From: Octadecabacter sp. B2R22
GTDB lineage: Bacteria > Pseudomonadota > Alphaproteobacteria > Rhodobacterales > Rhodobacteraceae
Length of the DNA: 64,000 nucleotides
Direction: 5' to 3'
Assembly (NCBI RefSeq): GCF_018861045.1
Contig: NZ_JAHKQJ010000007.1
Location: 1,023,511 to 1,087,510 of the forward strand
Shown: in pieces, positions 34,934-47,277 of the stretch
Layout: the number at the start of each line of letters is the position of its first letter
How positions within the stretch are numbered: position 1 is the first letter of the stretch
Translations under genes and position numbers: made by a program
The notes under the pieces: model-generated
What the model was told of the DNA's origin: nothing
Seen by the model: the letters and a program-made list of their open reading frames with translations, nothing else
The model's database searches: none

Positions 34934-37261
34934 CTAGAAGACCAATTCAGTTGTATTCGTTGGCATTACAGACATCCTCGAAAGCCGTTTGGCCTCTATG
35001 AAAGGCCGAGCGGACGGACCGTAAGCCGCCAAGCCCACAGGGCCAAGTTTCAGCAATGGGAAAAGGTGAAGAATTTCGGCCTGATGCGCAGGGGCTAATG
35101 CCGCGAGGCCCATCGGACCAGGATAGAAGCTTTCACTTGGGCAATTCTCTGCAAACAGGATTTGATGTTGCGCGAACATCAGGTGGACATAGGTCACCTT
35201 ACGCACGCCATTGGCGACCCTAAAACCATCGCCCCCATGTCGAGCCAAATGAATTGCCCGCGCGAGATATGATTGGCCCTCCAAACTCACGAAAATGCCG
35301 TGTTGTCGTGAGACAAGAAGGTCCCGTGTGTTGCCCAATGCACCTTTCGCAATTCGTACGGGCCGTGCCTTGGGGTTCGCCGCGAGCTCATCTTTGTTTA
35401 GTGTCGTTTGACCGGCCCAAGAAATCGGCTGCGCCCCGTGATCCGCCGTCTGAACCAAATCCCCGTGCCGTAAGGTTTCGACCAATCGGTCTCCGCTTGG
35501 CGTTCTGATCAGGGTCCCACTGGTGAAACAGGGGACGCCCATGCTCACGAGGGCGGAGGGCGTGGCGCTTCCTGGTGATACCCCGTTCAAGGTGATGCTT
35601 TCACCGATCGGGAACGTCAAAACCGCATTGCCCGACCCGTCGTCGGACACAACGACGTCTGCTGTGTTCACCGGGTTGCCACCGGAATCGGTCAGAAGCG
35701 ACAGGTCTAGCTGATCGTTCGTTGAACCGTCACCGTCGCTATCGGAGGTATCGAAATCGGTAATGACATCGTGGCCGGACCCATCTTCGAAGACATAGAC
35801 ATCGTCGCCCGCGCCGCCAGATAGCGTGTCATCGCCCGCGCCGCCAGATAGCGTGTCATCGCCCGCCCCGCCGGACAGGGTATCGCTGCCATCTCCGCCA
35901 TAGAGCGCGTCATTGCCCGCGCCTCCCACCGCACTGTCGTCACCATCCTCCAGATAGACGCGATCGGCGCCACTGCCGCCAATGAACGAGTCGTCGCCAC
36001 CAAAAGTGTAGACCTTCGTGCCAAGGCTGTCGGCGCTGGCATCGATCGTGTCGCCGTAGTCGACCGTGCCGAATATCTCTTCGATGTCGTCAAATGTGCC
36101 GGTGCCTGCGGTTCCGTTGAAATCGTACGTGCCGACCTCGTCACCTGTGAAGGTGACGGTTACGCCTTGCGTCGATACGACATTCGAGAATTCGATCGTG
36201 TCCCACCAACCGCCACCCGAAATTGTTGACGTTCCATCATCATCCTCGATCGTGAAACGATCGTTACCGTCACCACCAAACAAGGTGTCGGACCCCGCGC
36301 CACCGGAAAATGTATCGCCACCATCGCCGCCATACAATGTGTCGTCGCCGGTTCCGCCTGTCAGGCTATCGTCGCCCCCCTCCGTACTAACGAGCAGGTC
36401 TTGGGACGTCGCGGAGGCGTCGATAACGTCGGCATACTCGGTCGAAATAAACTCTTCGATTTCGCGAAAGCTGCCGCTGGTCGAGGTGCCCGAAAAGTCA
36501 AAGGTGCCGCTTTCCGACCCCGTGAATGTAACCGTGACGCCTTGCGTCGATGAATAATTGCTGAACCCGATGATGTCCCAATCAACGCCGCCTTCGCCCC
36601 CCTCGACGATGGCGAACTGATGGTTGTCGGTAACCCAGATTTCGTCGGACCCATCGCCGCCATAGATTGTGTCGTTGCCAACCGCACCAGACAACCAATC
36701 ATCGCCTGTACCACCGTAGATCGTGTCATCGCCTGCGCCGCCGATAATACTGTCGTCGCCAGCGTCACCGTAAATCCGGTTACTCCCTTGGCCGGTGGAC
36801 CAACTCCCGATTTGATCAGCACCGTCGCCGCCATAAATGACGTCGTTGCCATCACCAAAGGAGACCGTGTCGTCCCCCCCGCCCCCATAGACTGTGTCGT
36901 GACTCGTCCAGTTGTAAATATTCTGATCGGTGTCTTGAATATACTCACCATCAGAGGTGCCCGTCAGCGTATCGGTGCCCGTGGTGCCGTAGATCGCTTC
37001 GGCAAAGTCGGTAAGGTCGCCTGTTTCGCCCGGCGGGAACCCCGAGGAGTCGGACGGCACGAAATAGTAGTTGCCGCCAACCTGATAAAAGTACCCGAAC
37101 ACATCGCCAACGGTGTTCGGATAGTTCACGATGCCAGTGCCGAGGGTATCGTAAGAGGAATCGTCAAACGACGCCGTCGTAGAGCCCGAATACTCATCCC
37201 CAACGGTCGGGCCAACTGCACCCGTATCAAGATTGATTAGATATCCATTAACAGTAGCCAT
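34934..37261 (-). CDS. RTX repeat protein with C-terminal Hint domain
   Basis: This 775-residue protein has an N-terminal ordinary domain, then long tracts of GGxGxD nonapeptides (about residues 95-530). These are interrupted by two similar non-RTX modules containing STQGVTVTFTG and IDASA. From Cys578 (CFTSGTLIRTPSGDRLVETLRHGDLV) it has a Hint domain as in Hedgehog/intein autoprocessing; its HGIFVS and HQILFAENC blocks are present. Roseobacters often carry such Hint-RTX proteins, secreted by type I systems. Whether it self-cleaves is unknown. There is no secretion gene nearby. The gene is divergent from the 37.5-40.4 kb operon. Confidence 0.9.
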   Translation of the reverse strand: MATVNGYLINLDTGAVGPTVGDEYSGSTTASFDDSSYDTLGTGIVNYPNTVGDVFGYFYQVGGNYYFVPSDSSGFPPGETGDLTDFAEAIYGTTGTDTLTGTSDGEYIQDTDQNIYNWTSHDTVYGGGGDDTVSFGDGNDVIYGGDGADQIGSWSTGQGSNRIYGDAGDDSIIGGAGDDTIYGGTGDDWLSGAVGNDTIYGGDGSDEIWVTDNHQFAIVEGGEGGVDWDIIGFSNYSSTQGVTVTFTGSESGTFDFSGTSTSGSFREIEEFISTEYADVIDASATSQDLLVSTEGGDDSLTGGTGDDTLYGGDGGDTFSGGAGSDTLFGGDGNDRFTIEDDDGTSTISGGGWWDTIEFSNVVSTQGVTVTFTGDEVGTYDFNGTAGTGTFDDIEEIFGTVDYGDTIDASADSLGTKVYTFGGDDSFIGGSGADRVYLEDGDDSAVGGAGNDALYGGDGSDTLSGGAGDDTLSGGAGDDTLSGGAGDDVYVFEDGSGHDVITDFDTSDSDGDGSTNDQLDLSLLTDSGGNPVNTADVVVSDDGSGNAVLTFPIGESITLNGVSPGSATPSALVSMGVPCFTSGTLIRTPSGDRLVETLRHGDLVQTADHGAQPISWAGQTTLNKDELAANPKARPVRIAKGALGNTRDLLVSRQHGIFVSLEGQSYLARAIHLARHGGDGFRVANGVRKVTYVHLMFAQHQILFAENCPSESFYPGPMGLAALAPAHQAEILHLFPLLKLGPVGLAAYGPSARPFIEAKRLSRMSVMPTNTTELVF
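35807..35887 (-). repeat. 27-bp tandem repeat within the RTX-Hint gene
   Basis: Two identical 27-bp units (35807-35833 and 35834-35860) and a third diverged unit (35861-35887) encode SGGAGDDTL nonapeptides. The exact identity of neighbouring units points to recent slippage or unequal recombination. Confidence 0.85.
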
Positions 37262-37568
37262 GACAGACCTTTGGTTTGACGATCAGCGGCTCACTACAGG
37301 ACTAAGGTTAACGGATTGCCTAACCTCCAGATGAGGGGTCGCGCAAGAAAGGTCGGAGTTCGGGACCCGACCGCTCCTAACCTTATCGCTCAGGCTGATT
37401 TCTATCGTTCTTGCGCCGGCTTCGCATCCCAAGGTTGCGCTCCTCTTTTGGGTGATCGCTACCCTTAAATAAAACAAGCCCAAAGCCCTTGAATTAGTTG
37501 CTTTATACCAAACCACTCATGGCTAAAAATTAAACGAAACGAAGCAGCGGTTGAGAGATTGAATTAAT
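37262..37568. other. divergent intergenic region
   Basis: About 300 bp between the RTX-Hint start and the dehydrogenase start. It must hold promoters in both directions. GGTTA and TAACC (37301-37325) form a small dyad near the RTX-Hint start, and GGTCGG/CCGACC form another around 37353-37371. No gene is supported here. Confidence 0.4.
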
Positions 37569-38537
37569 ATGAAAATGGGTTTTGTCGGGCTTGGGAATGT
37601 TGGCAGTAAATTGGCGGGCAGTTTGTTGCGCAACGGGTTTGATCTGACTGTTTGTGATCTCAACCCCGAACTGGTGGCCGGATTTGTCGCCAAGGGCGCA
37701 AAGGCTGCGGACAGCCCTGCGGCCCTGATGCAAGCCTGCGATGCTGTCATCACCTGCCTGCCATCCCCACAGGCCTGCGCGGCCGTGGTCGAGGCGATGT
37801 TGCCCCATGTCGACGACACGAAAATCTGGATGGAAATGTCCACGACTGAAGTTTCTGAGGTGAAACGCCTTGCCGCGCTTGTGACAGAAAAGGGCGGCTC
37901 TGCGATTGAATGCCCAGTGTCGGGCGGTTGTCATCGCGCGGATACGGGCAACATCTCGATCTTTGCGGGCTGTGATCGCGCCACGTTCGAGAGGATGCTG
38001 CCAACGCTGACGACGCTGGGTCGGCGGGTTTTGCACACCGGTGAGATCGGGTCGGCCTCAACGCTGAAGGTGATGACGAATTATCTAGCGACGGCCAATT
38101 TGCTGACCTGCTGCGAAGCGCTGGTCACGATGAAGGCCGCGGGCATTGATCTGAACACGACCTATGAGGCGATGAAAATCAGCTCAGGGACATCCTTCGT
38201 CCATGAAACCGAAAGCCAACTGATCCTGAACGGGTCGCGCGACGTGTCCTTTACGATGGACCTCGTGAAAAAGGATATCGGCCTGTTTCAATCCTTGGCC
38301 GAAGCTGCGGATGTACCGCTTGAGATCAGCCCGCTGCTGGTCGAAATTTTTGATGACGGTATTGCCAAGTATGGCGAACGAGAGCTGTCCCCCAACATCA
38401 TCCGCCGCCTTGAAGACGCCACAGGCCTGCAGATCACGGCCCCCGGTTTCCCGACGGAACTGGTAGACGACGAACCCGAGGAGGACGGCTACGAGGTTAT
38501 CCCGACTGGCTTGTCGAAACCTGTGCTGGCCAGCTGA
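37569..38537 (+). CDS. beta-hydroxyacid-dehydrogenase-family oxidoreductase
   Basis: This 322-residue NAD(P)-dependent enzyme of the 3-hydroxyisobutyrate dehydrogenase/tartronate semialdehyde reductase superfamily has a Rossmann GxGxxG as MGFVGLGNVGSKLAGSLLRNGF. Substrate-binding CPVSGGCHRADTGNISIFAG and the catalytic-lysine helix TLKVMTNYLATANLL are present. The C terminus runs about 25 residues beyond the normal end. It starts an operon with a class II aldolase 2 bp on, and with a butyrobetaine-hydroxylase-like dioxygenase. Dehydrogenase plus class II aldolase pairs are known in four-carbon sugar acid pathways, but no kinase is present here. The substrate is unknown. Confidence 0.85.
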   Translation: MKMGFVGLGNVGSKLAGSLLRNGFDLTVCDLNPELVAGFVAKGAKAADSPAALMQACDAVITCLPSPQACAAVVEAMLPHVDDTKIWMEMSTTEVSEVKRLAALVTEKGGSAIECPVSGGCHRADTGNISIFAGCDRATFERMLPTLTTLGRRVLHTGEIGSASTLKVMTNYLATANLLTCCEALVTMKAAGIDLNTTYEAMKISSGTSFVHETESQLILNGSRDVSFTMDLVKKDIGLFQSLAEAADVPLEISPLLVEIFDDGIAKYGERELSPNIIRRLEDATGLQITAPGFPTELVDDEPEEDGYEVIPTGLSKPVLAS

Positions 38538-38539
38538 TC

Positions 38540-39283
38540 ATGGGTGGCGCGAACATGCAGCACTGGGCCGAACGGACCGACCTTGCGGCGACCTTTCAAT
38601 GGGCCGCCCGCCTGAACCTGCACGAAGGGGTCGCCAATCATTTCAGTCTGGCGGTGAACGAGGATGGCACTCAGTTTCTGATCAACCCCAATCAGGTGCA
38701 TTTCTCTAACATTCGCGCGTCTGATTTGCTGTTGTTGGATGCCAATGATCCGGACGTTTTGACCGGCCCAAATGCGCCGGATCCCACGGCATGGGGTCTG
38801 CATGCCTCGATCCATCGGCAATGCCCGCATGCGCGGTGTGTGATGCACACCCATTCAATCTGGTCGACCGTTCTGGCCTGTCTGGCCGACAGTACGCTGC
38901 TGCCGATCGATCAGAATACTGCGACGTTTTATAACCGCTATGTTGTTGACGATGCCTTTGGCGGCCTCGCGTTTGAGGACGAAGGCATTCGCTGTGCCCA
39001 GATGCTCTCTGATCCGGCCAAGAAGGTCATGGTGATGGGCAATCACGGCGTTCTCGTCGTGGGGGCTTCGGTCGCGGATACATTCAACCGGCTCTATTAT
39101 TTTGAACGTGCGGCTGAAACATATGTCCGTGCGCTGCAGACGGGGCAAAAACTGCGTGTCCTATCCGATGACATCGCTGAAAAAACGGCCCGTGAGCTTG
39201 ATGATTATCCCGGTCAGGCCGAGGCGCACTTGCGCGAAATTCGCACCCGTCTTGATGCGGAAAACAACATCTACGCCAACTAA
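38540..39283 (+). CDS. class II aldolase/adducin-family protein
   Basis: This 247-residue zinc-dependent enzyme of the class II aldolase/adducin fold has the zinc histidines in MHTHSIWSTVLACL and NHGVLVVG, and the base near TATFYNRYVVDD. Family members cleave or decarboxylate sugar-phosphate or hydroxyacid substrates. The ATG at 38540 lies 2 bp after the previous stop; a second ATG at 38555 is an equally plausible start. The HEGVANHFSLAV N-terminal block is typical. It shares the operon with the dehydrogenase before it and the dioxygenase after it. Confidence 0.85.
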   Translation: MGGANMQHWAERTDLAATFQWAARLNLHEGVANHFSLAVNEDGTQFLINPNQVHFSNIRASDLLLLDANDPDVLTGPNAPDPTAWGLHASIHRQCPHARCVMHTHSIWSTVLACLADSTLLPIDQNTATFYNRYVVDDAFGGLAFEDEGIRCAQMLSDPAKKVMVMGNHGVLVVGASVADTFNRLYYFERAAETYVRALQTGQKLRVLSDDIAEKTARELDDYPGQAEAHLREIRTRLDAENNIYAN

Positions 39284-39312
39284 CCTCCATCCCTTCAGAA
39301 AAGACAGTGACC

Positions 39313-40422
39313 ATGACACAGATAGAGTTTGATCTTCAGGAAAGCGGCGCGGTGATCCAGCTTTCTAACGGCCCAAAGTATTTCAACTATTACTGGCTGC
39401 GCGATGCGAGCAACTCGAACATCGATCCGCAAACCCGCGAACGGATTTTTGATGTTTCGCAATTGGCCCAAGCCCCCAAAGCGAAATCGCTTGTCCTGCA
39501 AGAGGGCGCTGTGATCATTGAGTGGGAAGCGGAAGACACCTCAAGCGAGATCTCCCTCGAGCTTCTTGAAGACATTGCCACCAAGGGCCGCCCCACTGAC
39601 ATCGCGGACCTGCCCCGTCGCGTTTGGTACAGTGACCACCTCGCTCACATCCAGCGTGTGCCGCAGGCTGATGTTATCGATACAGCGGCGGGTCGTGTTG
39701 CACTCACACGGGCATTAATCGAAGACGGTATTGCCATTGTCACGGACATGGACCCGTCAGAAGAAAGCCTGCCCAATCTGGTAAAGGCCATCGGCCCTGT
39801 CACCCCGTCTGGCGAAGGCCTGTTTTTCAATGTGCGTGTTGAGATCAACCCAACCAATCTGGCGTTCACCGCAGGTCCGTTAGAAATGCACACGGACCTT
39901 CCTGGTGAAGAAGCGGCACCCGGCGTTCAGTTTTTGCACTGCATTGAGAACACCGTGGATGGCGGCGCGTCGTTGTTTTTGGATGGGATCGCCGTCGCCA
40001 TGGCGCTGAAGGACGAAGACCCTGATGCGTTTGACCTGCTCGCGACCCACAAAATTCCGTTCTTTTACCGACATGACACGATTGATTACCAATCCCATCA
40101 ACAGGTCATCGAAACAGATCAGAACGGCAACGTCACGGGGGTCACGATTTCGCAGCACCTGCAGGATACGATGGACCTCCCGCAAGAGCTGCTGGACACC
40201 TATTACCCTGCTTTCATCAAGTTCATCCGCATGATGCAAGACGACCGCTTTGTCATGAAGTTCCGCTCTGAGGCCGGTAATTGCATTGTCTTTGACAATC
40301 ACCGCATCGTGCATGGCCGCGAAGGCTATGTTGCCGACAGCGGAAGCCGCCATTTGCGCGGCTGTTATACCGACCGCGCCGCGATGCGCAGCACCTACCG
40401 GATTGCGTCCAAGTCGATTTAA
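39313..40422 (+). CDS. gamma-butyrobetaine-hydroxylase-like 2-oxoglutarate dioxygenase
   Basis: This 369-residue Fe(II)/2-oxoglutarate oxygenase has an N-terminal DUF971-like domain of about 90 residues and a TauD-type catalytic domain. The HxD pair is His193/Asp195 in EMHTDLPGE and the distal His is His334 in NHRIVHGREGY, followed by the 2-oxoglutarate Arg region SRHLRGCYTDR. This is the butyrobetaine/trimethyllysine hydroxylase fold. Oddly, the N-terminal domain keeps the WLRD motif but has lost the zinc cysteines that usually follow. It closes the operon; a bidirectional terminator follows. A quaternary amine or related acid is a reasonable substrate guess, not a finding. Confidence 0.85.
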   Translation: MTQIEFDLQESGAVIQLSNGPKYFNYYWLRDASNSNIDPQTRERIFDVSQLAQAPKAKSLVLQEGAVIIEWEAEDTSSEISLELLEDIATKGRPTDIADLPRRVWYSDHLAHIQRVPQADVIDTAAGRVALTRALIEDGIAIVTDMDPSEESLPNLVKAIGPVTPSGEGLFFNVRVEINPTNLAFTAGPLEMHTDLPGEEAAPGVQFLHCIENTVDGGASLFLDGIAVAMALKDEDPDAFDLLATHKIPFFYRHDTIDYQSHQQVIETDQNGNVTGVTISQHLQDTMDLPQELLDTYYPAFIKFIRMMQDDRFVMKFRSEAGNCIVFDNHRIVHGREGYVADSGSRHLRGCYTDRAAMRSTYRIASKSI

Positions 40423-40442
40423 GAGGTAATATTGTATGTGTG

Positions 40443-40473
40443 AAAACGGCGCGGTTGATCCCGCGCCGTTTTT
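40443..40473. terminator. bidirectional terminator of the catabolic cluster
   Basis: AAAACGGCGCGG and CCGCGCCGTTTTT form a 12-bp stem with a 6-nt loop, with A/T runs on both sides, between the convergent dioxygenase and aldehyde dehydrogenase genes. Confidence 0.88.
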
Positions 40474-40490
40474 GTTTTCGGCTCTGTGAT

Positions 40491-41921
40491 TTACTGTGCG
40501 AAGGGTGGGCGCACTTTCACTTCGAGGTAATCCTCAAGACCAAACAAGCCACCTTCGCGCCCGTTGCCAGACTGTTTATACCCCCCAAACGGCGATCCGT
40601 AATCCGGCCCACGCCCGTTAATCTGGATCGTCCCCGCACGCAGACGCCGCACAACGCGCGACACGCGCGCTTCGTCGCTGGACTGAACATAGGCCGCCAG
40701 ACCGTATTCCGTGTCATTGGCCATGGTGATCGCGTCCTCTTCGGTATTAAAAGGCGTAATCACGAGAACGGGGCCAAAGATTTCCTCGCGCGAGATCCGC
40801 ATGTCGTGGTCAACATCGTAAAAGATCGTGGGCTTTACGTACCAACCGTCTTCAAGACCTTCAGGCTTGCCCAGACCGCCGACCAGCAGCTTGGCCCCTT
40901 CATCGATCCCCAGTTGGATCATTGCTTGAACGCGGTCGTATTGGATCTTGTCAAACAGCGGGCCGATATGGTCGCCTGATTGCGCAGGGTCCCCGACCTT
41001 TTGTGCCTCACCAGCGGTTTTGGCCAAACCCAGAACCTCGTCGTAACAGCTGCGTTCCACCAAAAGCCGCGTTGGCGCATTGCAGGATTGGCCCGTGTTG
41101 TAAAAACAGCCCTCAACGCTTTCGGTGACCCGTTTTGCAAGGTTGGCATCGGCAAACACAAGGTTGGGTGATTTGCCGCCAAGCTCAAGCGTGACACGCT
41201 TGATATCGCTCGCCGCGTCGCGTGACACAGCCGTGCCCGCGCGGGTGGATCCGGTGAACGACATCATGTCGATATCAGGGTGCTGCGACATAGCAGAGCC
41301 CACCGATAGACCATCGCCCTGCACAAGGTTGAACACACCAGCAGGATATCCGGCAGCATCCACAATTTCAGCATAGATTTGCGCGGAAATTGGGGTGTGC
41401 TCTGACGGTTTCAGAACGCAGGTCGCACCCGTAGCAAGTGCAGGAACCACCTTTAGGGCGATCTGGTTGATCGGCCAGTTCCATGGCGTAATGAGGCCGC
41501 ACACCCCGATAGGTTCGCGGGTGATGATGTCGCCGTTTGGCAAAACCTCTTCCTCTTCCATCGCCTCAAGGGCTCTGATGAAATCCTCAAGGTGACCAAG
41601 TCCTGCATCAGCTTGCACCTCAAGCGACATCGTCGCGGGCGCGCCCATCTCGGATGTCATCGCTGCGGCAAGGTCACCCAGACGGGCCTTGGTTTCCACG
41701 CGCAGCTTTTCCAACAGCGCGAGGCGCTCTTCTTTGGAAGTCATCGAAAACGTCTCGAACGCTCGTTTGGCGGCAGCCACCGCGCGATCAACGTCTGCGG
41801 CGTTGCCCATGCTCAAGGTGCCGATTTGCGACGCGGTTGCGGGGCTCATGATTGGCATTGTTGCATCAGACGCGGGATCAACCCACGCGCCGTCAATGTA
41901 GAACTTATTGAGTATCAGCAT
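40491..41921 (-). CDS. NAD(P)-dependent aldehyde dehydrogenase
   Basis: This 476-residue member of the aldehyde dehydrogenase superfamily oxidises an aldehyde to its acid. It has the cofactor loop FTGSTRAGTAVSRDAASDIK, the active-site Glu in VTLELGGKSPNLVF and the catalytic Cys in CFYNTGQSCNAPTRLLV. The C-terminal EEIFGPVL and the final INGRGPDYGSPFGGYKQSGNG blocks are also seen. I start at 41921, with AAAGGA upstream; an in-frame start at 41978 would overlap the previous gene. It is the last gene of a minus-strand operon GMC oxidoreductase - enolase-superfamily enzyme - aldehyde dehydrogenase. Confidence 0.93.
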   Translation of the reverse strand: MLILNKFYIDGAWVDPASDATMPIMSPATASQIGTLSMGNAADVDRAVAAAKRAFETFSMTSKEERLALLEKLRVETKARLGDLAAAMTSEMGAPATMSLEVQADAGLGHLEDFIRALEAMEEEEVLPNGDIITREPIGVCGLITPWNWPINQIALKVVPALATGATCVLKPSEHTPISAQIYAEIVDAAGYPAGVFNLVQGDGLSVGSAMSQHPDIDMMSFTGSTRAGTAVSRDAASDIKRVTLELGGKSPNLVFADANLAKRVTESVEGCFYNTGQSCNAPTRLLVERSCYDEVLGLAKTAGEAQKVGDPAQSGDHIGPLFDKIQYDRVQAMIQLGIDEGAKLLVGGLGKPEGLEDGWYVKPTIFYDVDHDMRISREEIFGPVLVITPFNTEEDAITMANDTEYGLAAYVQSSDEARVSRVVRRLRAGTIQINGRGPDYGSPFGGYKQSGNGREGGLFGLEDYLEVKVRPPFAQ

Positions 41922-41934
41922 GAAAAATCCTTTG

Positions 41935-43143
41935 TCATGTTGTGATAGGAGTTTGCGCCATTTCAAGGTGAAGCGCATCCCCCTCGTATGGCAGTTTTGC
42001 GATTGCGTCGTCGTCTAGCTCTAGCCCCAAACCGGGCGCTGTTGACGGTATGATATACCCGTCTTCCCATGTGATCGCGCCTTTGACGGCGGACATATAT
42101 GGCCCGTCAAATGTGCCGATGCTTTCAAGGATCAGGAAGTTCGGGGTGCAGGTCGCGATTTGAATATTCGCAGCCGCAACAATGGGCCCACAATACAGGT
42201 GTGGCGCGATCTGGGCTGACCGTGTTTCCGCTGTTGAGGCGATTTTCTTCGCCTCGAGCAGGCCACCGACACGCCCCAGATTGATTTGCAGGATCGACGC
42301 GGCGCTGACCTCAAGCATACGGGCGAATTCGTGCTTGGTGCACAGACGTTCGCCTGCGGCGACGGGGATGGATGTATAGGCCGCCACTTGTGCCATATCG
42401 GACGGGTTTTCCGGCGGGATCGGTTCCTCGAACCAAAGTGGATCGAACGGTTCCAACGCGCGCGCCATGCGTTTTGCGCCCGAAACGGTGAATTGGCCGT
42501 GGGTTCCAAACAACAGGTCTGCGCGTGTCCCGACGGCCTCACGGATTTCACGACAGAACGCGACGCTAAGCGCAATGTCATCCAACCCGGGCTGGCGACC
42601 ATCATAGATGGAGAACGGCCCCGCGGGGTCGAATTTCAGTGCGGTGAACCCCTGATCGACCATCCCAAGCGCTACTTCGGCGGCGATGGTGGGATCGTTG
42701 TAGGCGTTCGGCGTGTCTGGGTCTGGATAGACATCGCCGCTGGCTGGGTAAATGTAGGAATAACTGCGCAGGCGGTCATGCACACGCCCGCCAAGCAATT
42801 CATAAACCGGTTTTTCGGCAGCCTTTCCGACAATATCCCAACAGGCCATTTCCAGACCACTGAACACGCCCATAACGCTGACGTCTGGCCGTTGGGTGAA
42901 CCCCGCGCCGTAGGATTTTCGAAACAGGGCCTCGATGTGGTGGGGATCGGCCCCCTCAAAATGGCGGGCGAACATATCGCGGGCCATAGCGCAGCAGATA
43001 TCGGGCCCAAAGGTGGCGTTGTAAATCTCGCCGACGCCAGTGATGCCGCAGGTGGTCGTCACGCGGACAAAGATGAAATACCGTCCACCATGGCGCGGCG
43101 GCGGGTTGCCAACCACAAAGGTTTCTAGGCTTGCAAGTTTCAC
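41935..43143 (-). CDS. mandelate racemase/muconate lactonizing enzyme family member
   Basis: This 402-residue enolase-superfamily enzyme has a capping domain and TIM barrel. Metal-binding residues at the second and third barrel strands are visible (FEEP at 238-241 and GERL at 264-267), and the general-acid-base His315 (APHLYCGP) is kept. The position of the first metal ligand, usually Asp (DFHG or DYN), reads GTHG (213-216), and the Asp that partners the His reads Asn288 (QINLGRVGG). The overall pattern is closest to the galactonate dehydratase-like branch but forms its own subgroup. It starts with GTG in a GTGA overlap with the GMC gene. The substrate is unknown. Confidence 0.88.
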   Translation of the reverse strand: MKLASLETFVVGNPPPRHGGRYFIFVRVTTTCGITGVGEIYNATFGPDICCAMARDMFARHFEGADPHHIEALFRKSYGAGFTQRPDVSVMGVFSGLEMACWDIVGKAAEKPVYELLGGRVHDRLRSYSYIYPASGDVYPDPDTPNAYNDPTIAAEVALGMVDQGFTALKFDPAGPFSIYDGRQPGLDDIALSVAFCREIREAVGTRADLLFGTHGQFTVSGAKRMARALEPFDPLWFEEPIPPENPSDMAQVAAYTSIPVAAGERLCTKHEFARMLEVSAASILQINLGRVGGLLEAKKIASTAETRSAQIAPHLYCGPIVAAANIQIATCTPNFLILESIGTFDGPYMSAVKGAITWEDGYIIPSTAPGLGLELDDDAIAKLPYEGDALHLEMAQTPITT

Positions 43144-44759
43144 GAGGCATCCTCCAGGATCAGATCAGCGGCACGCATGGCCAGCATCATTGTCGGTGCG
43201 TTGGTGTTTCCAGAGGTGATATTCGGAAACGCAGAGGCATCCACGACACGCACACCTGCCACTCCATGGACCCGCAAACGTGCATCCAAGACAGACGTTT
43301 GGTCATCACGCCCCATCCGGCAGGTGCATGTCGGATGATAAACGGTCGAGGCACGCTGTTGGAAATCAGCAAGCAAGTCATCGTCGTCCAGCGCCATCAG
43401 GTCAGGTGCTTTGGCCTGTGATGTCACAGCCTTAAGGCTATCTGCCGCTGCAAACCGCTGAAGAACCTTGCCCGCCTGAATAGCCGCGCTTTGATCTTCC
43501 TCGGTCGAGAGGGAATTGGGCTGGATGCTGGGCGCAACCTGCGGGTCGGACGACGTGATTTCAATACGCCCCCTACTGGTCGGGCGGCAGGGCTGCGCTG
43601 AAATCTGGAAACCGGGGGTGCGATCAAGGGCTGCCTTACCCGACGGCGTCACCTCATAGGACGCTGGATTAAAATACACCTGCATGTCCGGTAGGCGATT
43701 GTCAGGGTCTGAGCGGACAAACCCGCCCACCTGATTGACCGGCACAGACAGGGGCCCTTTGCGCGTCAGCAGATATTTCGCCCCCATCAACAGCTTGCCC
43801 AATGTCCCACCCAACTGCGAATTCAGAGTCGGTTTGGTTGATCCGAATTGATAAGCGATCGCCAAATGGTCCTGCAAACCTTGCCCAACCTGCGCCAAGT
43901 CGCGCACCACTGGAATACCGTGAGATTTCAGCAGCGCGGCTGGACCAATGCCAGACAGTTGCAACAGCTTGGGCGAATTGATCGCGCCAGCGCACAAGAT
44001 GACTTCTTTGCGGGCGGTGATGTGACTGGGTTTTTTCCCTTGAGCGAAGGTCGCGCCCGTGACTTTACCACCCTCAACCGTCAGACGGGTAACATCCGCA
44101 TTGCGGATGATCCGCAGGTTCGCCCGTCGTTTTGCAGGCCGCAGAAACGCATCCGCCGAAGACCACCTAAAGCCCCTTCTCACTGTGCTGCGGTAATATC
44201 CGATGCCGTCGACCCCGTCCGCATTCAAGTCGGGAATAACAGTATGCCCTGCGTCGCGGCTTGCGTCCAAAAAGGTACGTGAGAAAGGCATCATCCGGTC
44301 GGACAGATCCGACACCCAGACGGGCCCATTGCCGCGCGTGGTGCGGCCCATCGGGCTAAGCTCGCTATGGGTTTCCAAACGGTCAAACACCGCACGCACG
44401 TTGTCCCAGTGCCAGCCCGTGGCCCCCGCCTGCGACCAATCATTAAAATCCTGCGCAAGGCCCCTGATGTAGGTCATCGCGTTTATCGAACTCGACCCAC
44501 CGATGAGCCGCCCTCTGGGCCAGCTGATCGAACGGGCATTCAACCCTTCGTCTGGTTCGGTGCGATACCCCCAATTCACATCAGGATTGGAGACGTTAAC
44601 GCCGTAGCCCAAAGGCACCTTGACCCAAAACCGCGCATCACTCCCCCCGCTTTCGAGAAGAGCGACTGTGAACTTACCTCCCTCGGACAGGCGGTTTGCC
44701 ACAACGCAACCGGCGGATCCCGCACCAACAATGATGTAATCAAATTCGCAGGTATCCAA
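43140..44759 (-). CDS. GMC-family FAD oxidoreductase (choline-dehydrogenase-like)
   Basis: This 539-residue flavoprotein of the glucose-methanol-choline family oxidises an alcohol, probably to the aldehyde used by the downstream aldehyde dehydrogenase. The FAD motif FDYIIVGAGSAGCVVANRLSE, PRGRLIGGSSSINAMTYIRG, GAINSPKLLQLSGIGP and the C-terminal active site VYHPTCTCRMG...NITSGNTNAPTMMLA (His/Asn) are intact. No ATG precedes the FAD motif in frame. I place the start at the TTG at 44759, where GGCGGA lies upstream and the FAD motif begins a few residues in, as in relatives; a TTG at 44825 is the far alternative. It is divergent from the LysR gene. Confidence 0.9.
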   Translation of the reverse strand: MDTCEFDYIIVGAGSAGCVVANRLSEGGKFTVALLESGGSDARFWVKVPLGYGVNVSNPDVNWGYRTEPDEGLNARSISWPRGRLIGGSSSINAMTYIRGLAQDFNDWSQAGATGWHWDNVRAVFDRLETHSELSPMGRTTRGNGPVWVSDLSDRMMPFSRTFLDASRDAGHTVIPDLNADGVDGIGYYRSTVRRGFRWSSADAFLRPAKRRANLRIIRNADVTRLTVEGGKVTGATFAQGKKPSHITARKEVILCAGAINSPKLLQLSGIGPAALLKSHGIPVVRDLAQVGQGLQDHLAIAYQFGSTKPTLNSQLGGTLGKLLMGAKYLLTRKGPLSVPVNQVGGFVRSDPDNRLPDMQVYFNPASYEVTPSGKAALDRTPGFQISAQPCRPTSRGRIEITSSDPQVAPSIQPNSLSTEEDQSAAIQAGKVLQRFAAADSLKAVTSQAKAPDLMALDDDDLLADFQQRASTVYHPTCTCRMGRDDQTSVLDARLRVHGVAGVRVVDASAFPNITSGNTNAPTMMLAMRAADLILEDAS

Positions 44760-44920
44760 GGTGTTCGTCCGCCATTCCAAGAGCCACCAAAAGAACCGAG
44801 CAGACGCGCCTGCGCAAACAAACAAACTTGCGGCTTAGGCCTAAATTTGATTGCGCATGGGTGATTGATTGGCAATAAAAATGCAGGCAACTGTGCCGCG
44901 AGAACGATTGGGACACCGCC

Positions 44921-45796
44921 ATGAGACGCCTTCCGCATGTGACTTGGCTCAGCACCTTTGAGGCCGCTGCGCGCCACGGATCTTTTGCCGCTGCCGCAGA
45001 TGAACTAAGCCTCACCCCCGCGGCCGTAAGCCAGCATATCAAACTGCTCGAACAAACTCTTGAAATGAAGCTGTTCAAAAGGTTGCCCAAAGGCGTCGAA
45101 TTAACGGACATCGGGCAAGCCTACGCCCAACCTGTTCGGCAATCATTTGTCGATCTTCAGACCGCAACAGACGGGCTTTTCCAAACTCAGAAACAAACGA
45201 CGTTGCATGTGCGTGCGTCGATCTCGTTTGGTGTGATCGTGCTTGTTCCCAGATTGCACGAATTCCGCGCCTTGCACCCCGAAATCAACATCGTGGTATC
45301 GACCACTGTGTGGTCGAACCGGCTGAATGATGCGACCATCGACGTGGATCTTCGCTATGGCAACGGCGACTGGCCAGAACGCGATATTTGGCAGTTAAGG
45401 CGGGGTCACGCGTCTCTGATTTGCAGTCCGCACGTTGCCAGCACTCTGCAAGGGGATCCGAACCAACTTGAGACTGCAGACATTGTTAATATTGTTGGTT
45501 CCGAAAACGACTGGCCGCGCATGTTTAGCGAATTGGGGGTGAATAGTGCGGTTCCGTCCGCTTGGATGTCAGTGGAATCCTCGTTGCTCGCGCTCGAAAG
45601 TATTGCGGCGGGTCGCGGTATCGCAATTGTGGATACGCTGTTCACTGACAGCTACGTCAAGCGAGGCGATTTGGTTGTTCCCTTTGAACAGGCCGTCCCC
45701 ACCACCCAGAACTTTTATTTGGTCGCCGATCCAGACCGCAAAACCCGTTCTGCAGTTGCATGCTTTCGCGATTGGATTGACGCGATTGTAAAGTGA
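44921..45796 (+). CDS. LysR-family regulator, GcvA-like
   Basis: This 291-residue LysR-type regulator has an N-terminal winged helix (LSTFEAAARHGSFAAAADELSLTPAAVSQHIKLLEQTLEMKLFKRL) followed by a periplasmic-binding-like sensor domain. The start MRRLPHVTWLSTFEAAAR is typical of the GcvA/AmpR branch. It is divergent from the GMC-enolase-aldehyde dehydrogenase operon, the arrangement expected of its regulator. The 160-bp gap must contain its operator. It could sense the pathway's substrate or an intermediate; the ligand cannot be predicted. A hairpin follows the stop. Confidence 0.88.
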   Translation: MRRLPHVTWLSTFEAAARHGSFAAAADELSLTPAAVSQHIKLLEQTLEMKLFKRLPKGVELTDIGQAYAQPVRQSFVDLQTATDGLFQTQKQTTLHVRASISFGVIVLVPRLHEFRALHPEINIVVSTTVWSNRLNDATIDVDLRYGNGDWPERDIWQLRRGHASLICSPHVASTLQGDPNQLETADIVNIVGSENDWPRMFSELGVNSAVPSAWMSVESSLLALESIAAGRGIAIVDTLFTDSYVKRGDLVVPFEQAVPTTQNFYLVADPDRKTRSAVACFRDWIDAIVK

Positions 45797-46205: not shown

Positions 46206-46266
46206 TTTATATCTCCGTTCCGTTGATACCTTGTTAGCGCGTGCGCTGTTTGGCATAAATGACAAC

Positions 46267-47277
46267 ATGCCCACCGATTCAGCCAAATCCCTCAAAACCC
46301 CTTTGCCCATGGCGTTCCTTCTTTTCAAAGGCACTAAGCTCTTGGATTTCGCGGGGCCTTTGCAGGTCTTCAATGACGCCAAACTCCCAGATGGAACGCC
46401 AGCTTATGATGTACATCTCTTGTCTGATATGGGTGGCTTGTTGAGCACCGATACTGTTTGCCGGATCGAAACCAAAGCGGTCGCGGAATGTCAGGTTGCG
46501 AATTGGGATACGGTATTGGTGTCTGGAGGAAACAGCGCCTATGAGGCCATGCAGTCAGACATCTTATGCAGCTACATCAATACGTCAGCCGCCAGTTGCC
46601 GCAGGCTTGGATCAATTTGCTTGGGCGCATTCGTCCTTGCCGCTTGTGGCCGTCTATCGGGACGCCGTGCCACAACGCATTGGGACGGCGTCGCCAAACT
46701 CAGCGCTGATTATTCTGATATATGCGTCCAAGATGATGCAATCTTTGTTGAAGACAACGGGATTTGGACATCCGCGGGCGTCACAGCCGGGATCGACATG
46801 GCGATCGAAATGGTACGACGCGACCTTGGTACCGCCGAGGCTGTTCGTATCGCTAAATCGCTCTTGCTGCCAATGCTTCGTAGCGGCGGTCAACGTCAGT
46901 TCAGCAGAGTTTTGGCCGCTCAGACGGCAAGCAGCAGTCACCGTTTCAGTGAACTCGTCGAATTCATCGCCTCAAACTTGAAAGACCACATATCGGTAGC
47001 GAAAATGGCAGCCAAAGCTGGCATGAGCGAACGGAACTTCTCGCGCAAATTTGTGGTTGAGATAGGCGTCTCTCCTGCACAGTTCGTCGAAAAACTTCGC
47101 GTTGAACACGCAGCAGCTATGTTGCACCAAAATGAAATTTCCCTCGCCACAGTACGGGCTGAAGCAGGCTTTACAAATGATGAAAACATGCGCCGTGCGT
47201 TTCAAAGACAACTTAGCGTGTCGCCTTCCGCCTACGCATCACAGTTTGCAGCGCTAGACCTTGAAAGCGCACTCTAA
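46267..47277 (+). CDS. GlxA-type transcription regulator (DJ-1/PfpI + AraC)
   Basis: This 336-residue regulator has an N-terminal DJ-1/PfpI-like sensor domain (PMAFLLFKGTKLLDFAGPLQVFNDA, DTVLVSGG, GSICLGAFVLAACGRLSGRRATTHW). The nucleophile-elbow Cys lies in ICLGAF. A C-terminal AraC DNA-binding domain has two helix-turn-helix motifs (ISVAKMAAKAGMSERNFSRKFVVEIGVSPAQFVEKLRVEHAA and LATVRAEAGFTNDENMRRAFQRQLSVSPSAY). Family members govern use of arginine, choline or carnitine-type compounds. I start at the ATG at 46267; an earlier in-frame start at 46138 overlaps the DUF1272 gene. Its target may be the divergent DUF1272 gene. Confidence 0.88.
   Translation: MPTDSAKSLKTPLPMAFLLFKGTKLLDFAGPLQVFNDAKLPDGTPAYDVHLLSDMGGLLSTDTVCRIETKAVAECQVANWDTVLVSGGNSAYEAMQSDILCSYINTSAASCRRLGSICLGAFVLAACGRLSGRRATTHWDGVAKLSADYSDICVQDDAIFVEDNGIWTSAGVTAGIDMAIEMVRRDLGTAEAVRIAKSLLLPMLRSGGQRQFSRVLAAQTASSSHRFSELVEFIASNLKDHISVAKMAAKAGMSERNFSRKFVVEIGVSPAQFVEKLRVEHAAAMLHQNEISLATVRAEAGFTNDENMRRAFQRQLSVSPSAYASQFAALDLESAL

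Follow-up and report, generated by a model that had tools for sequence, protein, structure and literature searches.

We analysed a 64,000-nucleotide stretch of the genome of the alphaproteobacterium Octadecabacter sp. B2R22 (contig NZ_JAHKQJ010000007.1, positions 1,023,511 to 1,087,510 of the forward strand; hereafter, the window) and found that seven of its genes, which encode six enzymes and a LysR-type regulator, are one conserved unit. An operator-like motif common to both arms of this cluster indicates that the one LysR protein very probably controls them both. From the enzymes and the neighbourhoods of their relatives we infer the substrate and the reaction steps, and propose tentatively, with slightly less than even confidence, that this LysR-controlled unit oxidatively degrades a small cationic compound of the betaine or carnitine type.

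The open reading frame (ORF) list and the Pfam and NCBIfam comparisons recovered the gene layout given in a preliminary description of this DNA, namely two convergent arms and a divergent LysR gene. The plus-strand arm consists of a beta-hydroxyacid dehydrogenase (bHAD; 322 aa, 37569..38537, PF03446 and PF14833), a metal enzyme of the aldolase fold (ALD2; 247 aa, 38540..39283, PF00596; PRK07490 family, NF005689) and an Fe(II)/2-oxoglutarate dioxygenase of the TauD or gamma-butyrobetaine hydroxylase (BBOX) type (DIOX; 371 aa, 39307..40422, PF02668; alternative ATG start at 39313). It converges on a minus-strand arm composed of a GMC oxidoreductase (about 540 aa, 43140..44780, PF00732/PF05199), whose start is uncertain (TTG candidates at 44780 and 44759), an optional member of the enolase superfamily (ENOL; 402 aa, 41935..43143, PF13378/PF02746) and an aldehyde dehydrogenase (ALDH; 476 aa, 40491..41921, PF00171). 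The regulator (GcvA-like, 291 aa, PF00126/PF03466) is encoded at 44921..45796 on the plus strand and scores 238 of 288 bits with the GcvA family. As the preliminary description had also said, neither a transporter nor a kinase lies inside the cluster, judging by the ORFs and a Pfam scan of the window.

To see the cluster in other genomes, species genomes were scanned for DIOX. This yielded 197 relatives, of which the 80 best make up the named loci, and the presence of the other genes was scored by tblastn. Several loci lie on short contigs, where absences are not evidence, and five loci (L163, L168, L189, L195 and L225) are very likely the same records as genomes G052, G134, G015, G092 and G138. 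The nearest DIOX relative (95%) belongs to Octadecabacter algicola. The order bHAD-ALD2-DIOX converging on ALDH-(ENOL)-GMC, with LysR divergent, was found in 22 of the 80 loci, 15 with ENOL and seven without; GMC was matched as two fragments in one of the loci counted (L157). The two arms, which had been proposed to belong together, thus do co-occur elsewhere, all seven genes being present in 15 loci. Within the clade of the DIOX tree that contains the window (44 loci), ALD2 accompanies DIOX in 40 loci, bHAD and LysR in 32 each, ALDH in 28, GMC in 27 and ENOL in 15, and ALD2 is near DIOX in 74 of all 80.

A second sample came from the family Rhodobacteraceae. Of 149 family genomes, 12, the window's own among them, have a DIOX relative with at least 48% identity along most of its length, and in all 12 a PF00596 gene is the DIOX neighbour. 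Three 20-kb stretches hold all seven genes (G134), all but ENOL (G015), and all but ENOL and ALDH (G052). One further genome (G006) has an additional, partial match: its locus (L122, G006:C36:1-19900) has full-length LysR, GMC, ENOL, ALDH and bHAD genes alongside ALD2 and DIOX matches of 76 and 165-166 residues, and is a decayed copy of the cluster. Relatives of bHAD, ENOL and ALDH occur elsewhere in 92, 109 and 122 of the 149 genomes at the cut-offs used, so each of these gene families also has other lives. Beyond this layout, all six enzymes (48-65% identity) are present in another arrangement in Novosphingobium fuchskuhlense (L206). Thirteen plasmid matches were obtained, six of which were examined (H1, H2, H7, H8, H11 and H12), and the complete cluster also resides on a 600-kb plasmid of Paracoccus seriniphilus.

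The regulatory sequences point to joint control as well. An alignment of 27 LysR/GMC intergenic regions contained a conserved block of 36 columns (34 bits), which in the window lies at 44816..44851 on the plus strand. A matrix of this block was then used to score the 266 bp upstream of bHAD in the window and in those 32 of the 80 loci that have bHAD on the plus strand and enough upstream sequence (33 sequences), and the results were compared with 60 control stretches per sequence from the same sources (1,980 in total, true sites excluded). For each test the matrix was built without the locus concerned but with its close relatives, and the 33 loci are related rather than independent events. The best score exceeded the 99.5th percentile of the controls (4.6 bits) in 27 of the 33 upstream regions, and in 26 of them the site is minus-strand and some 55-70 bases away from where the bHAD match begins; the remaining one (L160) has its site at another position. 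Five loci (L162, L166, L205, L206 and L207) fell below the threshold, and L167 has a site in place that scores 4.5 against 4.6 bits. Four of the 26 accepted sites score lower than the top value among all 1,980 controls (14.7), although in no locus did any of its own 60 controls outscore the site. In the window, the site (37468..37503, minus strand) scores 19.1 bits, a value reached by none of its 60 controls. Both window motifs read opposite to the transcription of the arm they precede; the distance to the bHAD start is 66 bp, and that to the GMC start 36 or 57 bp, depending on the candidate taken. Because a common motif precedes both arms in 26 of 33 loci, the strongest new sign of joint control, one LysR protein very probably runs both, in keeping with the dedicated regulator of the preliminary description. 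Beside LysR lies an AraC-type regulator gene (46258-47277) that is GlxA/FtrA/GbdR-like, a type linked to betaine metabolism; it was considered as a further member and rejected, with no relative of at least 40% identity in the 80 fetched stretches.

The gap between the convergent arms contains a hairpin (40442..40473) with a stem of 12-13 bp and folding energies of -22.7 and -22.8 kcal/mol on the two strands; on neither of them did any of 200 shuffled sequences fold as well (z -3.75 and -5.88). After the GC stem come UUUUUGUUUU on the plus strand and UUUUCAC on the minus strand, and the longer U tract makes it the stronger terminator candidate for the plus-strand arm. Hence, of the shared bidirectional terminator described earlier, the strong two-strand hairpin stands, while its two sides are unequal. 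A generic terminator scan did not list this hairpin and found no excess of sites (10 against 10.9 expected); likewise, the generic promoter and terminator scan of the window gave no excess.

Among solved structures, DIOX is closest to TmpA (2-trimethylaminoethylphosphonate dioxygenase) and BBOX, with which it shares the superfamily, the iron and 2-oxoglutarate ligands (His195, Asp197 and His336, and Arg348, by alignment) and Asn184, the counterpart of BBOX Asn191. Its cage and second carboxylate residues are changed, and it scores below both curated cut-offs (237.0 of 414.75 bits for the BBOX family TIGR02409; 252.1 of 400 for the TmpA family NF049936). The aromatic cage of BBOX consists of Tyr177, Trp181, Tyr194 and Tyr205, and its carboxylate pair of Asn191 and Asn292 (PMC4497603; cage residues also in PMC13257696). 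The aligned cage positions of DIOX are Glu170, Phe174, Phe187 and Leu198, and Asn292 is replaced by Ser282, so that one of the six residues is identical; if the second BBOX asparagine is numbered N293, as in PMC9296572, the DIOX residue is Gln283. On the DIOX tree, all 45 sequences of the window clade (the window plus 44 loci) have Glu at the first cage position, all nine of the adjacent clade have Asp there and all 27 distal relatives have Phe; the outgroups have Phe (5) or Tyr (4). All 81 sequences, the window included, have His256, Asp260, Ser282, Gln283, His284 and His332, of which His284 and Asp260 are shared with the nearer outgroup too. From these alignments, the DIOX group seems to form a distinct subfamily with a single common pocket.

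ALD2 is the only enzyme of the cluster that passes a cut-off among the NCBIfam families listed, and that family is named 'hypothetical protein' (NF005689/PRK07490; 399 bits, cut-off 260). His88, His103, His105, Glu148 and His169 are kept in at least 97% of 108 sequences and include the metal-binding triad of PF00596 (His103, His105 and His169). At the position of the catalytic Glu73 of the class II aldolase FucA, ALD2 has Ala84, which is invariant in 30 sequences. This register was taken from FucA Phe76, which is aligned with Phe103 of pyruvic oxime dioxygenase (POD), 16 residues before the first metal-binding His (PMC11841055); the corresponding residue of ALD2 is Leu87, and Ala84 lies three residues N-terminal to it. 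Glu148 may substitute spatially for FucA Glu73, as Glu164 does in POD. In a fold search, ALD2 ranked closest, after one uncharacterised structure, to the iron oxygenases NovR, TqaM and POD, and among iron oxygenases and decarboxylases generally; these three class II aldolase-fold enzymes share 20-23% identity with it, a resemblance of fold and residues only. ALD2 is thus a probable non-haem iron oxygenase or decarboxylase whose 'aldolase' label is probably wrong, and the aldol cleavage suggested in the preliminary description was dropped as the default on account of Ala84 and the fold rank. The genome also carries an ALD2 paralogue (72%; L129, G000:C1:139215-139940) next to an AMP nucleosidase gene, at the head of a run of acyl-CoA (coenzyme A) dehydrogenase, NDP-forming CoA ligase and crotonobetainyl-CoA-hydratase-like genes.

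bHAD, ALDH and GMC have conserved residues of their own and fall short of the listed families. In bHAD, which is under all 11 listed NCBIfam cut-offs, Lys167 is kept in at least 97% of 52 sequences; the same proportion holds for Cys280 and Glu246 of ALDH (49 sequences) and for His478 and Asn521 of GMC (44 sequences). ALDH reaches 421.3 of the 668.6 bits required by betaine-aldehyde dehydrogenase (BADH, TIGR01804), the comparison for ALDH and LysR covering the best 25 families each, and GMC reaches 439 of 732.1 bits for the choline dehydrogenase betA (TIGR01810) and 528 of 605 for PRK02106. GMC and the BetA of the same genome share 39.5% identity.

ENOL is nearest to the solved structure 4e5t (681 bits), within a group (4e5t, 4e4u, 3t4w, 3rcy and 4j3z) deposited without a function name, and its best NCBIfam matches, gluconate and galactonate dehydratases, stay below their cut-offs (225 of 750 and 224 of 311 bits). 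It has Gly213 at the position of the first Asp metal ligand, as does its paralogue L001 in the same genome; two other superfamily members encoded there, L003 (ManD-like by eye) and L004, have Asp. As for ENOL as a pathway step, the gene belongs to the cluster in 15 of the 22 loci, but its absence from the seven others, otherwise complete, means that it is not essential everywhere. Being dispensable, it is taken as accessory. Another ENOL paralogue (L130, 54% identical, G000:C3:434108-435286) lies beside a Zn-alcohol-dehydrogenase-like gene (by eye). In five other genomes (L096-L100), relatives of L130 have in their vicinity a TmpA-like dioxygenase (29-34% to DIOX), together with a small PhnZ/TmpB-type HD-like protein (by eye).

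The neighbourhoods of the relatives agree with a quaternary-amine substrate, one of the two classes favoured earlier. They were surveyed in 93 loci (the 80 named, six plasmid and seven family loci, with L116 and L225 in the same genome). A run of acyl-CoA dehydrogenase, ligase and carnitinyl-CoA dehydratase genes was present in 10 of these, BKACE in eight and carnitine dehydrogenase in seven. Carnitine 3-dehydrogenase (647 bits, cut-off 592) is a neighbour of distal DIOX-ALD2 pairs; on plasmids of Sulfitobacter, Palleronia and Thioclava such pairs stand beside this enzyme, BKACE, carnitinyl-CoA dehydratase, acyl-CoA dehydrogenase and CoA ligase, and the same five carnitine-degradation genes accompany them in L116/L225 and L211. 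L121 has this set minus carnitine dehydrogenase in its stretch, and L119 (G117) combines carnitine dehydrogenase, BKACE, an ABC transporter, DIOX-ALD2, ENOL and bHAD within 15 kb. In the sister clade with Asp, ALD2-DIOX heads an acyl-CoA dehydrogenase/ligase/hydratase run in three of nine loci. In P. seriniphilus, the whole seven-gene cluster has a glycine-betaine ABC transporter and an aminomethyltransferase as neighbours, and in Pseudooceanicola algae the window-type ENOL, ALDH and bHAD (73-83% identity) are beside a distal-type DIOX-ALD2 and an ABC transporter.

The window's genome encodes carnitine dehydrogenase (790 bits), BKACE and BetA (774 bits, cut-off 732) elsewhere and, at an E-value of 0.001, no second DIOX match. 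The separate carnitine dehydrogenase, BKACE and BetA, together with the single DIOX, indicate that the cluster is an additional route, distinct from the degradation of choline or carnitine as such. We rejected carnitine degradation proper, as carnitine 3-dehydrogenase and BKACE are absent from the window's cluster and their genomic copies lie elsewhere on the contig. The choline/glycine-betaine route proper was likewise rejected, since GMC and ALDH miss the respective cut-offs and the true BetA is encoded elsewhere.

On the betaine-type reading, GMC and ALDH would convert a terminal alcohol to a carboxylate, DIOX would hydroxylate the resulting acid, bHAD would oxidise the new hydroxyl to a ketone, and ALD2, acting as an iron-dependent oxygenase or decarboxylase, would remove one or two carbons. 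The shortened betaine would then enter the separate carnitine and glycine-betaine routes of the genome, with ENOL as an accessory dehydratase or isomerase for one form of the substrate. A more specific version, which we consider unlikely, is a CoA-independent, O2-driven betaine route with two different iron oxygenases acting in succession: after hydroxylation by DIOX and ketone formation by bHAD, the Fe(II)/O2 'class II aldolase' would cleave the chain, either replacing the acetyl-CoA-dependent BKACE step or shortening, for instance, 5-trimethylammoniopentanoate by one carbon toward the carnitine route.

Several observations count against a betaine-type substrate. The main weakness is that the carnitine-type run occurs in none of the 44 window-clade loci, within the fetched stretches. 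In addition, some neighbours suggest a sugar-acid or polyol route, the other substrate class named in the preliminary description: the cluster of Rhodobacteraceae bacterium SC52 adjoins an altronate dehydratase and a sugar ABC transporter, that of Natronohydrobacter (L176) a dihydroxyacetone-kinase-like gene and UgpC-type ABC ATPases, L183 has a ribose-type permease, and in Novosphingobium L206 a glycerol-3-phosphate dehydrogenase is about 5 kb from DIOX. In such a route, GMC and ALDH would oxidise a polyol or aldose, ENOL would dehydrate the acid, bHAD and ALD2 would finish the degradation, and DIOX would modify an unusual acid. The best NCBIfam matches of ENOL fit this scheme, and pairs of bHAD and PF00596 enzymes operate in threonate catabolism. 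However, the presumed dehydratase is the very member that seven clusters lack and has Gly213 in place of the first Asp ligand, the window's cluster has no kinase, and the solved DIOX relatives found use N-trimethyl acids. The sugar-acid fit is accordingly weak, and we regard this route as unlikely, and as less likely than the betaine-type reading.

The acidic residue in the DIOX cage raises a different question, namely whether the substrate is an N-H cation (a guanidino compound or a primary or secondary amino acid, e.g. 4-guanidinobutyrate) with which this residue pairs. The strict presence of Glu or Asp in the window-side clades against Phe in the distal one is in line with this idea. So is the position of a distal pair (L118) beside an enzyme of the 5-guanidino-2-oxopentanoate decarboxylase family (696 bits, cut-off 500) and an aminotransferase, and that of three Granulosicoccus loci (L196, L199 and L200) and P. 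algae L239 beside another thiamine pyrophosphate (TPP) enzyme. In these last four, the TPP-dependent decarboxylase-type gene is convergent with DIOX-ALD2 and would suit the decarboxylation of an amine-bearing 2-oxo acid. Yet acidic residues are also present in quaternary-ammonium sites, such as that of choline oxidase; TPP enzymes of either kind were seen in only five of the 93 loci and the aminotransferase in two, with none of the seven sightings in the window clade; and changes at the cage position do not follow the enzyme content, as L206 has all six enzymes with Phe. An N-H cation is therefore rather improbable. Finally, we doubt strongly that DIOX is an ordinary gamma-butyrobetaine hydroxylase making L-carnitine amid loosely associated housekeeping oxidations: it is the genome's only such match, carnitine dehydrogenase and BKACE exist elsewhere and the deposited SC52 annotation is gamma-butyrobetaine dioxygenase, but it falls below the family cut-off and differs from BBOX at all four cage positions and at one carboxylate-binding Asn, and the constant gene order of 22 loci and the common motif speak against a loose association.

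Outside the cluster, the flanking genes vary. No conserved transporter partner emerged, the commonest candidate being one ABC ATPase family in five of the 80 loci, and the flanking transport systems are of the 2-aminoethylphosphonate, phosphonate, ribose and UgpC types. In the window, the minus strand at 34934-37261 encodes a protein of 775 aa that combines RTX calcium-binding repeats with a Hint_2 domain.

Among the papers listed by our literature searches we saw none on this cluster. The nearest published parallel found is a genomic island of Arctic SAR11, of which the report describes a choline dehydrogenase, an aldehyde dehydrogenase, two gamma-butyrobetaine dioxygenases, a class II aldolase and a 3-hydroxyisobutyrate dehydrogenase (PMC12421898). 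These kinds correspond to five of the six enzymes here, a likeness of gene names and not of protein sequences, and support a betaine-type substrate class. The island, of 17-20 genes, has in addition a carnitine dehydrogenase, BKACE, a thioesterase and a glycine-betaine ABC transporter; an enolase-family gene or LysR is not named in the parts of that report available to us, in which the island is read, from genes and latitude, as serving glycine-betaine uptake and production (PMC12421898). The CoA-dependent carnitine degradation of alphaproteobacteria houses the distal DIOX-ALD2 relatives, and the ALD2 paralogue of the window's genome heads a similar run; in contrast, the window's cluster lacks those CoA-dependent genes and has GMC, ALDH, bHAD and ENOL instead. 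Choline oxidation to glycine betaine by BetA and BetB also uses a GMC and ALDH pair, from which the present pair is set apart by its sub-threshold scores and by the separate BetA.

Quaternary amines are major marine carbon and nitrogen currencies, and how bacteria open betaine chains other than those of choline and carnitine is poorly mapped. The cluster is a compact, recurrent and very probably jointly controlled gene set that is found on chromosomes and plasmids. Five of its enzymes pass none of the listed NCBIfam cut-offs, and the sixth, the 'aldolase', probably catalyses a reaction other than its label implies. With an operator-like motif common to both arms and a defined set of genes, the question of the substrate is open to a direct test in a single strain.

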